Position numbers and translations under genes: made by a program
The notes under the pieces: generated by a model
What the model saw: the letters and a program-made list of their open reading frames with translations, nothing else
Told to the model about the DNA's origin: nothing
Databases searched by the model: none
In this document: one piece after another, positions 6,669 through 15,484 of the stretch
How positions within the stretch are numbered: the first letter of the stretch is position 1
Layout: each line of letters opens with the position of its first letter
IMG/VR virus record: IMGVR_UViG_3300009451_000007
Coordinates: 1-21,000 of that record
DNA: 21,000 bases
Strand: one strand, 5' to 3'
From: a virus

Positions 6669-6914
6669 TTAGGGTTCTATGAAGATGCATTCACCAGGGC
6701 ATTCGGTTGCTGCTTCTATCACATCATCAAGTCTTGCATCGGCAAAAGATGCCATGCCTTCTGCGCCTTCGGGATTGCTTCGGAGCTTGGAATACACCTT
6801 CCCGTTCTCTTGAACATAGGCTAATCCATCCTCCAGCATGGTGAAAACATCGGGGGCTATTTCGGCGCACAGACCATCTCCAGTACATAGGTCTTGGTCA
6901 ATCCATACTCTCAT
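6669..6914 (-). CDS. [3Fe-4S]-type ferredoxin, 81 aa
   Basis: Small electron carrier of the actinobacterial ferredoxin type. Cluster ligands are C10, C16 and C72 in a C-TG-D13-GL-C...CP arrangement; Asp13 stands where a [4Fe-4S] protein has its second cysteine, which points to a [3Fe-4S] cluster. An extra C76 follows in CPGECI. The 81-residue length is usual for the family. Such ferredoxins feed electrons to cytochromes P450 and other oxidases in actinobacteria. It is the only reverse-strand gene among 6.6 kb of + genes and no partner reductase or P450 is visible, so it looks like an acquired host-type metabolic gene. Confidence 0.9.
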   Translation of the reverse strand: MRVWIDQDLCTGDGLCAEIAPDVFTMLEDGLAYVQENGKVYSKLRSNPEGAEGMASFADARLDDVIEAATECPGECIFIEP

Positions 6915-7714: not shown

Positions 7715-7891
7715 ATGCCACAATATGATTACAAATGTTCCAATGGACATCCCTATAGTGAGTTTAGATCTATTCTGGAAGAAATTTCAAGCCCGAACTG
7801 TTCGGTGTGCAACGCTGCGCTAAAACAAATCTACTCCCCGCCGATGATTGAACTCAAAGGCAGTGGATTCTACCGCAACTCCCGAAAATAG
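7715..7891 (+). CDS. FmdB-type zinc-ribbon protein, 58 aa
   Basis: The opening MPQYDYKC and the CSNGH...CSVC pattern (C8, H12, C29, C32), followed by LKQIYSPPMIELKGSGFYR, match the FmdB/CxxC small zinc-ribbon family found in bacteria and actinophages. The role is poorly known; zinc binding and a regulatory or nucleic-acid-contact function are assumed. Length is typical. It has its own strong promoter just after the endolysin gene and is followed by a probable structured RNA. Confidence 0.85.
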   Translation: MPQYDYKCSNGHPYSEFRSILEEISSPNCSVCNAALKQIYSPPMIELKGSGFYRNSRK

Positions 7892-7893
7892 CT

Positions 7894-7922
7894 TTCTACA
7901 AATATCTACAATGTGATATAAT
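7894..7922 (+). promoter_or_regulatory. Strong extended -10 promoter for a non-coding RNA
   Basis: TGA-TATAAT (7914-7922) is an ideal extended -10, with a weak TTCTAC at 17 bp upstream. The predicted start is near 7929. No plausible ribosome site or long frame follows before the terminator at 8074-8103. Confidence 0.7.
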
Positions 7923-7928
7923 TTCTTA

Positions 7929-8104
7929 GGCACCCTAAAAGTGTCAAGCGGCAATCGTGATCTGCACTATCACCAGAGCAGAACGAATTTCGCTATCTTA
8001 GGACCGTTATAGTAACCATCCGCAAGGATGTTAACACCCAGCGCCTCCCAGCCTGGGACATCTAAGAGGAAAGAGAGACCGCCCGCAAAGCGGTCTCTTT
8101 TCTA
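7929..8104 (+). ncRNA. Probable structured non-coding RNA, ~175 nt
   Basis: Bounded by a strong promoter and an intrinsic terminator. Helices visible by eye are TTAGG/CCTAA near the 5' end, GTGAT/ATCAC, CATCC-GCAA-GGATG (a GNRA tetraloop), CCCA/TGGG in CCCAGCCTGGG, and a long-range CTTAG/CTAAG pair (about 7996-8000 with 8063-8067) closing the central part. The same CTAAG could instead pair with the TTCTTAG at the very 5' end, giving two alternative folds. It does not match tmRNA, RNase P, 6S or SRP signatures that I know. A 23-codon GTG frame inside it has no ribosome site. Confidence 0.6.
8074..8103 (+). terminator. Intrinsic terminator of the RNA
   Basis: GAGACCGC (8075-8082) pairs with GCGGTCTC (8090-8097) around a CCGCAAA loop, followed by TTTTCT. 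Outer A-T and G-T pairs extend the stem. Confidence 0.92.
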
Positions 8105-8105
8105 T

Positions 8106-8340
8106 TCATAGCCAAGCTTGCTTCTAAGCTCGCTTCCAACTCTTCTCCCGACTTTTAAACCAGCTCCCGCCCATTTCCCGCCCACGCCCTTTTTTAGAAA
8201 AATTGAGTATATATTAAAACAGTGTTATGCCGTATTTTACGGTGTACCTAAATTGGTATGTTGGGTAGGGTCAATGGCTTAGGTGATCAAATTGATCTAA
8301 TTTCTGATCTAATCTCTGATATATCTCTAAACAATTTATG
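8106..8340. other. Non-coding junction between AT-rich genes and the cassette region
   Basis: No credible gene. It holds a C-rich run with repeated CCCGCCCA-like words (about 8166-8190), a CCGTATTTTACGG palindrome (8230-8242), a GATCAAATTGATC palindrome (8285-8297) and the 12-bp repeats listed separately. Composition changes sharply from here to about 9400 (more GC, AAG-, GCN- and CGN-rich coding). Confidence 0.6.
8294..8329. repeat. Three tandem 12-bp repeats
   Basis: GATCTAATTTCT, GATCTAATCTCT and GATATATCTCTA follow each other without gaps. The last contains TGATATATC, an extended -10-like sequence (TGA-TATATC, 8317-8325) also found at 12369-12377 and 13059-13067. The repeats may be an operator upstream of the 8457 gene. 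Confidence 0.65.
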
Positions 8341-8363
8341 AAACCCTTATCCCATAAGGGTTT
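8341..8363 (+). promoter_or_regulatory. 5'-leader hairpin of the 8457 gene
   Basis: AAACCCTTAT and ATAAGGGTTT form a perfect 10-bp stem with a CCC loop, beginning about 15 nt after the putative -10 at 8320-8325. No T-tract follows, so it is not a terminator in this direction. A second perfect hairpin, GGTGATC-aacgg-GATCACC (8418-8436), lies just before the ribosome site. Leader hairpins also start the next cassettes. Confidence 0.6.
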
Positions 8364-8456
8364 GCGAGAGTGTCAGTACTTGCTATGTCTGCCCTATGCC
8401 CTGTATGGTTTAGTCATGGTGATCAACGGGATCACCCAAAACCGAAAGGGTTAGAA

Positions 8457-8927
8457 ATGGCAAAGGCAAAGGCAAGGTTTACCTACAAGGTAAGCGCAAG
8501 CGGTAAGGCGTTAGCAGATAAGACTATTGCTATCGTACAGGCAGACAGGGCTAAGGCTCTGAAGGCAGGGGTACGGGCTCGCTATGTAGATGTAGCATTC
8601 ATCACGGCACTAGCCGAAGCATACGAGCGGGCTCAGAGCGTACAGGCTCTACAGAGCGAGGTTGCATATTGCTACGAGAACGGCAAGGCGATTACCGTTC
8701 CGTCAGTAGTCCGCTACCAATTGCTACAGGGCAAGGCGAGCAAGAGCCCTACCGAAGTGAACAACCGAGGCGAGAACGCTATCCAACAAAAGATAGACAA
8801 CCTCGCAGGCGAGAAGGGTTGTGCATGGGTAGGCAAGATGAAGGCTACCCGAGCCCTATCCTATGGTATGAAGGTAAAGGCTACCGACCCCGAGATAGCC
8901 GATCTCGTAGTGTTCGCTCGGATCTGA
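8457..8927 (+). CDS. PSVxR-family basic protein, 156 aa
   Basis: The ATG at 8457 has GAAAGG nearby; the longer frame from 8370 runs through two leader hairpins and is unlikely. The protein is basic, Ala/Lys-rich and helical (MAKAKARFTYKVSASGKALA). Its second half shares spaced residues with the 9827 protein: PSVVRYQLLQGKA...NRGENAIQQKI here against PSVQRNMICRKA...RADNAMRQRL there. No database family is recognised. It may bind nucleic acid. Coding is GC-richer than the flanks, with Lys almost always AAG, as in highly expressed genes. Confidence 0.7.
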   Translation: MAKAKARFTYKVSASGKALADKTIAIVQADRAKALKAGVRARYVDVAFITALAEAYERAQSVQALQSEVAYCYENGKAITVPSVVRYQLLQGKASKSPTEVNNRGENAIQQKIDNLAGEKGCAWVGKMKATRALSYGMKVKATDPEIADLVVFARI

Positions 8928-8951
8928 GCGAAAGGGGGGCGAAAGCCCCCC
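8913..8951 (+). terminator. Double hairpin at the end of the 8457 gene
   Basis: TTCGCTC (8913-8919) pairs with GAGCGAA (8926-8932), enclosing the stop codon. It is followed at once by GGGGGGC-GAAA-GCCCCCC (8934-8951), a very stable tetraloop hairpin. No T-tract follows; the next bases are C-rich, so termination may be Rho-dependent, or the hairpins may protect the 3' end. Confidence 0.6.
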
Positions 8952-9053
8952 TACCCCCCCCTACCCCAAAATTTCGTGGGCGTAGGGGGTTATCGGGGGA
9001 ACATTTAGTACATAACAAAACACACACAAAACAATAGAAAAGGAAAAAACATT

Positions 9054-10630: not shown

Positions 10631-10888
10631 ATGAACACTTACGAGGTTAGTTTCCAGTTTGAACAAGGCGAGTTGGAATGGTGCGACAGCATGCTTTACG
10701 ATGCATCGGACATCAAGGACTTGATCAAGGAAGTCCGTAAAGATATCAACGCATTCAAGGCAGACTTCAAGGGTCGGAAGGGTTACTCAATGAAGGTGAT
10801 CTTTGCACAGCAACACGAAGAAGAAGGTGTACTGGAAGAAGGCGAAGAAGACATCACTGACGAGTTTCCAGAGTCCATGCTCGCTTAG
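10631..10888 (+). CDS. NTYEV-family acidic protein, 85 aa
   Basis: Opens with MNTYEVSFQFEQGELEW, matched by MNTYEVGFQFQQGALKW in the 11693 protein. In both, a helical middle with spaced Ile/Lys residues is followed by MKVIFAQ/MQVTFAQ and an acidic end (DITDEFPESML here, DITNDLPQHLL there). The likely fold is a compact alpha/beta domain with paired outer strands. Strongly acidic, so a protein- rather than DNA-binding role is more likely; acidic phage proteins often inhibit host DNA-binding enzymes, but that is only a guess. The ATG is preceded by GTTAC. Confidence 0.75.
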   Translation: MNTYEVSFQFEQGELEWCDSMLYDASDIKDLIKEVRKDINAFKADFKGRKGYSMKVIFAQQHEEEGVLEEGEEDITDEFPESMLA

Positions 10889-11692: not shown

Positions 11693-11950
11693 ATGAACAC
11701 ATACGAAGTAGGATTTCAATTTCAGCAAGGTGCGTTGAAATGGTCTGACCGTTATACAATTCAAGCATTGGGCATAAAGGAATTGTCTGAAAAAATTGAC
11801 AACATGATTAGTGAATGGGATCTAAATCATGCGCAGTACAATTTCAAATGTTCCATGCAAGTAACTTTTGCCCAGGACATGGAGCACGAACATGACGATT
11901 GCCCTGATGACATTACCAATGACCTACCCCAGCATTTACTGAACTACTAA
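11693..11950 (+). CDS. NTYEV-family acidic protein, second copy, 85 aa
   Basis: Duplicate of the 10631 gene with the same length of 85 residues, the same opening (MNTYEVGFQFQQGALKW), the same MQVTFAQ strand and an acidic DCPDDITNDLPQHLL end. Sequence identity is moderate, so the duplication is not recent or the copies are diverging fast. Here the gene lies inside a multi-gene group rather than alone. The ribosome site is weak: AAGGG lies 12 nt from the ATG. Confidence 0.75.
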   Translation: MNTYEVGFQFQQGALKWSDRYTIQALGIKELSEKIDNMISEWDLNHAQYNFKCSMQVTFAQDMEHEHDDCPDDITNDLPQHLLNY

Positions 11951-12292: not shown

Positions 12293-12465
12293 GGGGTCAT
12301 GTAATAATAGAAGTTTTTCTAAACTTACACCGAAAAATAGGTTTGTAATCAAATTGTAACAATGACCGTGATATATCTCATATGGGCATTGGGTTTGCGG
12401 GGTTTGTTACATTCTCATTACCTTGCAATTCCTATTCCTATCCATTACCTTTACATATGTCAAAG

Positions 12466-12515
12466 CAACAACGCCTAGACAACCGCTTAGGCGGTTTACA
12501 CGCAAAGGTAGAAAA
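12466..12515 (+). promoter_or_regulatory. Leader with two competing hairpins
   Basis: CGCCTA can pair with TAGGCG, or the overlapping AACCGC (12481-12486) with GCGGTT (12491-12496). The two helices share bases and exclude each other. An AAAGG ribosome site follows. The leader may be about 130 nt long if transcription starts near the TGATATATC at 12369. It could act as an attenuator or thermosensitive leader; not shown. Confidence 0.4.
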
Positions 12516-12791
12516 ATGAAATTCCAAATCATTGAGGAGACCGCACTGGAGTTTACTCCACGAGGTCGCAAGTCAAATGTGGAACCTGAATTGGTAGAGG
12601 CACTAAAGACCTTGCCAAAGGGTAAGGCTGTAAAAATTACAGACATGAAATTGAACCCAAAGACCGACACATTCAAGACCGACAAGGCTCGTGTCTCCGC
12701 AACAATCCGTTCGGCAGGCAAGCAAGCCAAAGTCAATGTCAAGATCATGTGGGCAACTGATGGTACACCACAGGTAGTAGTTGCCAAGTAA
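12516..12791 (+). CDS. RGRKSN-family protein, copy 1, 91 aa
   Basis: Opens with MKFQIIEETALEFTPRGRKSN. The PRGRKS stretch at residues 15-20 resembles the RGR/AT-hook type of motif used by AT-hook and Lsr2-like proteins to enter the minor groove of AT-rich DNA. A helical middle (PELVEALKTLPKGKAVK) is followed by KARVSATIRSAGKQAKV and a strand pair (VKIMWATDGTPQVVV). Two further copies lie at 13324 and 15484. DNA binding is inferred from the motif and from the palindrome-rich setting; no known family was recognised. Confidence 0.8.
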   Translation: MKFQIIEETALEFTPRGRKSNVEPELVEALKTLPKGKAVKITDMKLNPKTDTFKTDKARVSATIRSAGKQAKVNVKIMWATDGTPQVVVAK

Positions 12792-13058: not shown

Positions 13059-13323
13059 TGATATATCAGTGAGAAAAAAAGTTTATGTAATTTTAGAATT
13101 AGCCTATTATTACACCAAATCTTTGATATCGTCATTAGTGCTGGTTGACCCCAGCCGAGTTCTCGCCATTAGGCGGGCTGTAAAATTACAGCCCTGCAAT
13201 TTTGGTCTCGGTGTCCAGCCTAGAAGTTGCGGGAAGGGTTCGGGTGTACGATCCAAAAATTACACCGAGGCTACTTTAGGCATAAAGTAGTTGTCACTTC
13301 TAAACTTACACAGAGGTAAGATA
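13059..13323 (+). promoter_or_regulatory. Long structured leader of the 13324 gene
   Basis: It starts at an extended -10-like TGATATATC. It then holds the palindrome GGGCTGTAAAATTACAGCCC (13175-13194) and a closed domain in which CTCGGTGT (about 13206-13213) pairs with ACACCGAG (about 13261-13268) around a GC-rich loop. The ribosome site GAGGTAAG precedes the ATG. An open GTG frame across 13069-13290 has no protein-like features. The layout suggests RNA-level control or a second operator. Confidence 0.45.
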
Positions 13324-13626
13324 ATGGCTGATAAGAAATATCAGATCATTGACGAAGCCGAGTTAGAGTTCGTACCGCGTGGACGCAAGTCCAACACGGA
13401 CGCCGAGTTGGTAGACGCTATGCGTAAACTTACATCGGGCAAGGCTCTCTCGGTTACTTCTTTGCAAGTAGACATGAAACTCACTGCGGAAGTCGTGAAG
13501 TCCGAGAAGGCTCGCATTAGTGCGATGCTTCGGGCTTGTGCGAAACAAGCAGGGGTTACTATCTCAATTCGCTGGTCGCTTACGGGCGTACCGCAAATTG
13601 TCGTAGTGTCTACTTCTAAGAAGTAG
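13324..13626 (+). CDS. RGRKSN-family protein, copy 2, 100 aa
   Basis: Aligns with copy 1 throughout: YQIIDEAELEFVPRGRKSN, AELVDAMRKL-SGKA, KARISAMLRACAKQAG and IRWSLTGVPQIVV. The body is slightly longer around residues 45-60. The best conserved part is PRGRKSN, supporting its importance. Coding is GC-richer than surrounding DNA. The gene is bracketed on both sides by the same palindrome, GGCTGTAAAATTACAGCC (13175-13194 and 13660-13677), a likely autoregulatory arrangement (inference). No simple terminator follows, but a large nested hairpin does. Confidence 0.8.
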   Translation: MADKKYQIIDEAELEFVPRGRKSNTDAELVDAMRKLTSGKALSVTSLQVDMKLTAEVVKSEKARISAMLRACAKQAGVTISIRWSLTGVPQIVVVSTSKK

Positions 13627-15139: not shown

Positions 15140-15484
15140 TTATTTCTTAGCCTTAGGCTTATCTATTCCGAAACGAATTGCTGGAACAGTTTCCTTATGC
15201 CAACGGATTTCTGAAGAATAACCCAAACGCTTAGCCAAACCCCGAAGCATTGCCGAAGTTGTAGCCTTATAGTTTTTCTTATCCTTTTCATCAGTTAGAT
15301 CTGAAGGAATAGCCAATTCCGTAAGTGTAAGGAATTTCTTACCTTCAACCATTTTGTTAGCAATAATCGTATTCTTAATCTCATTCACAAATTCATCTGA
15401 AAGATTAGATTTACGACCACGCTGAACAAATTCCAAATCATTTTCTTCAATGATTTCAAATTTCATTTTTTTATTCTCTGACAT
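15140..15484 (-). CDS. RGRKSN-family protein, copy 3, reverse strand, 114 aa
   Basis: MKFEIIEENDLEFVQRGRKSN shows it is a third copy of the 12516/13324 family; KATTSAMLRGLAKRLG and EIRWHKETVPAIRF continue the match. It has an insertion in the middle (about residues 40-65) and a Lys-rich end (KPKAKK). It is AT-rich with AAA lysine codons, unlike the other two copies, so it belongs compositionally to the right-hand block. It has its own promoter, a good ribosome site (AAAAGGG) and a terminator, and stands alone between palindrome clusters. A DNA-binding role is inferred from RGRKS. Confidence 0.8.
   Translation of the reverse strand: MSENKKMKFEIIEENDLEFVQRGRKSNLSDEFVNEIKNTIIANKMVEGKKFLTLTELAIPSDLTDEKDKKNYKATTSAMLRGLAKRLGYSSEIRWHKETVPAIRFGIDKPKAKK

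Follow-up and report, generated by a model that had tools for sequence, protein, structure and literature searches.

We identified, between two genes of an uncultured phage, what appears from its sequence to be a discrete RNA gene, whose predicted product carries a 29-nt arm antisense to helix 69 and the adjoining strand of 23S rRNA. The gene lies in a 21,000-nucleotide stretch of viral DNA (the window, meaning the whole of the stretch analysed), and promoter, hairpin, antisense arm and terminator follow one another in it in this order. The best overall explanation, to which we assign a probability of roughly 0.6, is a trans-acting antisense RNA directed at host 23S rRNA, probably hindering 50S assembly or subunit joining. 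That the phage encodes an antisense RNA pairing with host 23S rRNA is very probable, and an inhibitory outcome on host ribosomes is given a little less than an even chance. The features concerned are as follows.

7715–7891, plus strand: gene for an FmdB-like zinc-ribbon protein (Pfam Zn_ribbon_8, E 6e-7, under the gathering cut-off), the conserved 5' neighbour in the RNA's class
7914–7922, plus strand: extended -10 promoter TGATATAAT, with the hexamer TATAAT at 7917–7922 and TCTACA 16 nt upstream
7929–8106, plus strand: predicted small RNA of about 178 nt (124–155 nt in relatives), placed from the promoter and terminator positions and the fold score (z = -5.2)
7947–7994, plus strand: 5' bulged hairpin of the minimum free energy (MFE) structure, whose closing strand on the 3' side forms the beginning of the antisense arm
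7985–8013, plus strand: antisense arm, 29 nt against E. coli 23S rRNA 1913–1941, with 28 Watson-Crick pairs and one G.U at 1930
7996–8067, plus strand: second hairpin of the MFE structure, closed by TCTTAG/CTAAGA and enclosing much of the anti-helix-69 sequence
7997–8012, plus strand: 16-nt core CTTAGGACCGTTATAG (also written CUUAGGACCGUUAUAG), antisense to 1914–1929 and common to all classes
8017–8030, plus strand: GCAA-capped hairpin CATCC-GCAA-GGATG, a lineage-specific insertion
8068–8106, plus strand: intrinsic terminator, a strong and conserved hairpin with the end TCTCTTTTCTATT

The original prediction had proposed a new structured RNA at this position, framed by an extended -10 promoter and a strong terminator and lacking a convincing protein, and comparison with related loci bears out all of these elements. 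All relatives examined have TGATATA[AC]T or TGCTATACT ahead of the RNA; promoter-like sites overall are in no excess in the stretch (3 vs 3.5 in shuffles), and the extended -10 site itself is conserved. The terminator hairpin is likewise kept, and no conserved coding frame runs across the predicted RNA in relatives. The 177-nt stretch folds with an MFE of -61.4 kcal/mol, compared with -41.2 for shuffled sequences, and none of 200 shuffles was as good. Three pairs are compensated in the equivalent 5' hairpin of L003, L014, L054 and L009. The GCAA hairpin that had been pointed out is real, though shared only by the window and L005, L010 and L012. The CTAAG segment at 8062–8066 had been given two possible CTTAG partners and hence two alternative folds. 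One partner holds, as the copy at 7997–8001 is conserved and can pair with this segment (CTGAG, CCAAG or CTAAG in relatives). The other copy (7925–7929), at the predicted start or 5' of it, reads acttatg or tccttgg in relatives; since this copy is not conserved and falls outside the predicted RNA, we rejected the two-state fold. The feature that defines the RNA, its 29-nt arm antisense to helix 69, was absent from the original prediction.

Neither the window nor 15 related loci matched any Rfam covariance model at its gathering score, except for tRNAs, and a known RNA family, including tmRNA, 6S, RNase P, SRP and riboswitches, was therefore rejected. The best sub-threshold match of the window was Trp_leader, at 15.1 of 41 bits. 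The complementarity between positions 7985–8013 and 23S 1913–1941 was recognised through a sub-threshold match of the minus strand to large-subunit rRNA (7.7 of 50 bits). A sense rRNA fragment was discarded, since the minus strand alone matches and the GGCC half of helix 69 is absent.

The arm covers the loop of helix 69, the 3' side of that helix and the single strand beyond it (1913–1941). This run of 29 nt stands against next-best runs of 13 elsewhere in 23S rRNA and 12 in 16S rRNA, and composition shuffles gave best runs mostly of 11–16, with one of 21. Ranking of duplex energies over 23S rRNA was uninformative because GC-rich terminators took the top places. The 5' strand of helix 69 is never included in the antisense sequences. 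In the predicted folds of classes E, C and D (described below) a large part of the core is base-paired, so its exposure varies by class. A further rRNA complement in the hairpin of L003 (23S 1853–1869, 17 nt with many G.U pairs) was dropped as not conserved.

An exact search with the arm returned 14 viral contigs, nearly all carrying it directly 3' of the same FmdB-like gene and each with the extended -10, hairpin, arm and terminator; the core was also found 3' of the gene in 14 close FmdB relatives. In L027 and L029, close FmdB relatives found by protein alone, the RNA is shorter and holds the identical core of 16 nt. Counting all lineages, some 190 IMG/VR phage stretches contain CTTAGGACCGTTATAG, nearly always directly followed by a terminator. 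Two core patterns, both designed so that rRNA cannot match, found 86 and 111 IMG/VR stretches, and a dinucleotide-shuffled control, made for the first pattern only, found 5 against its 86, by which chance recurrence was rejected. Three of the 197 matches are likely chance (L069, L099 and L108, of which the first two fall within long open frames); the status of L048, a neighbour of tRNAs, is doubtful. Contamination of the contigs with 23S genes was also rejected, as the flanks are not rRNA and the patterns exclude it. The remaining matches sort into groups A to J, which are unrelated in sequence beyond core and terminator and occupy the following settings.

Classes A, E and I: after FmdB
Class B: 5' of a RuvC-like resolvase, in many cases following an HNH gene
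Class C: after the tail tube gene
Class D: after ribonucleotide reductase
Class F: 3'UTR of the capsid gene
Class G: near tRNAs, uncertain
Classes H and J: lysis regions

BLAST searches with three class sequences returned mostly 23S contaminants or chance matches, the exception being an uncultured 735-kb phage with a diverged class C copy. Scans of genomes for prophage or cellular copies were empty for the window core, and the bipartite pattern found 23S genes only. At the homologous positions of cultured relatives (Streptomyces Samistivirus, Microcystis and Flavobacterium phages) the RNA is absent. In the class C lineage of L060 and L068, a gene for a 536-aa protein adjoins the tail tube gene upstream of the core; on visual inspection the protein resembles a homing endonuclease.

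The gene for WhiB, a regulator of Actinobacteria, was present in each of the three long class A contigs tested and in several class B contigs; the tested contigs of classes C, D and G all lack it. From this distribution, some phages with the RNA infect Actinobacteria and others would infect different bacteria, so that the hosts appear to span phyla. A solitary gene for a 4Fe-4S ferredoxin (6669–6914, minus strand) is present in the window too, on the opposite strand within the late-gene block and conserved in L134.

Conservation of the core was assessed free of ascertainment in 80 loci fetched by the RuvC protein alone, without use of the core. The exact core was present in 63 of these 80 loci, a core with one change in 7, and no core in 10. 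Six of the single changes are A to G opposite U1923, which keeps a G.U pair, and one (L340) is T to C opposite A1916, where the pair is lost. Among the ten loci lacking the core, three have no such intergenic space (L333, L335 and L336), the intergenic sequence of six is different, and the remaining one, L264, is a short contig end. The sequence upstream of RuvC in L325, L328, L329, L330, L332 and L338, as well as in L264, holds another terminator-ended and probably structured element (gcaggtggtcgaat...ggcgggttttctgct), with no notable complementarity to rRNA.

Elsewhere, the class A changes that keep a wobble pair are C to T at 1930 and A to G at 1940 (L003, L009 and L054), and L160 (class I) has a wobble-keeping C to T. 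The 735-kb phage combines a C to T with wobble and a compensated stem (ACGG/CCGT to ACGAT/ATCGT) with loss of the pair at 1929. Counted by lineage, the pair is kept in 5 of 7 departures, a small and partly post hoc tally. Such conservation with mostly wobble-preserving changes suggests that pairing with 23S rRNA is under selection. In the bipartite classes C and D, the terminator loop holds TTCGCTAC or a near variant, antisense to 1931–1938; two separate pieces, in reversed order, thus make up the antisense sequence there. Of 46 representatives covering all classes, 44 have a same-strand terminator 3' of the core, compared with 8 on the other side and 5 in shuffled sequences. Class B has TANNNT exactly 13 nt 5' of the core in 48 of 55 cases, from which its RNA should begin with the antisense core itself. 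Each of 16 long contigs contains one core site, and no second complementary site was found within these phage genomes. The marks of a trans-acting antisense sRNA that can be read from DNA are thus present, namely its own promoter and terminator and an extended, conserved complementarity to its target.

The same 29-nt complementarity would also apply if the RNA bound 23S rRNA to the benefit of the phage, by shielding helices 69–71 from a host defence or toxin nuclease, by chaperoning 50S, or by tuning the subunit pool for phage mRNAs. MazF-type toxins cut near 1940, the class A and I arms extend to 1941, and several copies adjoin late genes (capsid, tail tube, lysis), when translation is still needed. 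We nevertheless consider a beneficial effect unlikely, as helix 69 should be inactive once paired and the peptide nucleic acid (PNA) data cited in PMC7038079 favour inhibition. The minimal core shared by all classes, moreover, spans only 1914–1929. Still less probable is a DNA-level feature with an incidental RNA, either a homing-endonuclease target of the I-CeuI kind or an att-type fragment of 23S rDNA. The complementary stretch overlaps the I-CeuI site in 23S rDNA, and an HNH gene often lies just 5' in class B, but many class B loci have no HNH gene and the 5' strand of helix 69 is never present. While the I-CeuI site is a DNA target, conservation in the phages follows RNA pairing on one strand: orientation relative to the terminator is fixed (44/46), most substitutions retain RNA wobble pairs, the split arms stand in reversed order, and class B has a promoter-like box at a fixed distance.

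A guide RNA that directs a nuclease or a modifying enzyme to 23S rDNA or rRNA would resemble the predicted molecule in its hairpin and exposed arm, and the RuvC-like and often HNH genes next to class B could be read in this sense. These neighbours are, however, confined to class B, no protein partner is common to all classes, and the TnpB/Cas12f domain (PF07282) was found in none of 16 long RNA-carrying contigs, compared with 6 of 14 control genomes. The C/D and H/ACA guide RNAs of archaea and eukaryotes are small RNAs that pair with rRNA, as predicted here for the window RNA, which differs in lacking boxes (inspection of 7929–8106 revealed no C box, RUGAUGA, or D box, CUGA), in belonging to bacterial phages and in its single conserved site; we consider a guide function very improbable. 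The slightest chance is given to an element acting in cis from the 3'UTR, which would hold 50S subunits on phage mRNAs or modulate termination. Such an element would suit the 3'UTR positions of classes F (capsid), D (nrd) and C (tail tube), whose RNAs may be 3'UTR-derived, but not the promoter-like sequence just 5' of the RNA in classes A and B.

If the RNA is a trans-acting inhibitor, it would be transcribed from about 7929 by a host-type promoter, end at the terminator near 8100 and offer its 29-nt arm to 23S 1913–1941. First contact would probably be made via exposed loop nucleotides, followed by strand invasion of helix 69 on free or nascent 50S. Helix 69 would then likely be unable to fold or to join 30S, new ribosome assembly or 70S formation would fall, and the host translation economy would shift during infection. 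As the phage itself depends on ribosomes, it has reason not to block them all, and timing or selectivity must be assumed; with invasion directed at free or nascent 50S and mature 70S partly spared, it could limit new host ribosomes and use existing ones. PMC7038079 describes helix 69 as an inter-subunit connection and cites a synthetic antisense PNA against this same hairpin as inhibiting E. coli growth (Kulik 2017). That PNA is synthetic and short, whereas the window RNA would be a natural phage RNA.

The complement is universally conserved in rRNA and therefore not host-specific. The small RNAs of phages known to us, or described in PMC12197685, act on mRNAs. The c4 RNA of P1/P7 and other trans-acting antisense sRNAs of phages, reviewed in PMC12197685, resemble the window RNA in being short phage RNAs with complementary sequence in loops, but c4 targets mRNA and the complement here is rRNA; a word search of that review returned no mention of rRNA. 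A limited search of open-access full texts found no description of a phage antisense RNA against rRNA, subscription papers and preprints being mostly outside this coverage and priority unproven, and on this basis we rate the kind as new, with its function predicted. If true, a natural RNA aimed at rRNA would be a new viral route to control host translation; some 190 environmental phage sequences represent it, and it seems to have arisen independently in several unrelated gene settings. It would also validate helix 69 as a naturally chosen target, and since the target is identical in essentially all bacteria, the effect should be testable in a laboratory strain. We see even odds that antisense RNAs against this one universal, essential ribosomal hairpin arose repeatedly among phages infecting several bacterial phyla, as a general weapon or control device acting on assembly or subunit joining in any bacterium.

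Other features of the window include three paralogous small proteins with an LEFxxRGRKSN motif (12423–12791, 13291–13626 and, on the minus strand, 15140–15484), with no Pfam match in the two tested, and a second paralogous pair with MNTYEVxFQF (10631–10888 and 11693–11950). The GC content climbs to 50% just 3' of the RNA (8000–9000), and GC skew is positive at 1–6 kb and negative at 15–21 kb, a shift that perhaps marks a replication or transcription boundary.
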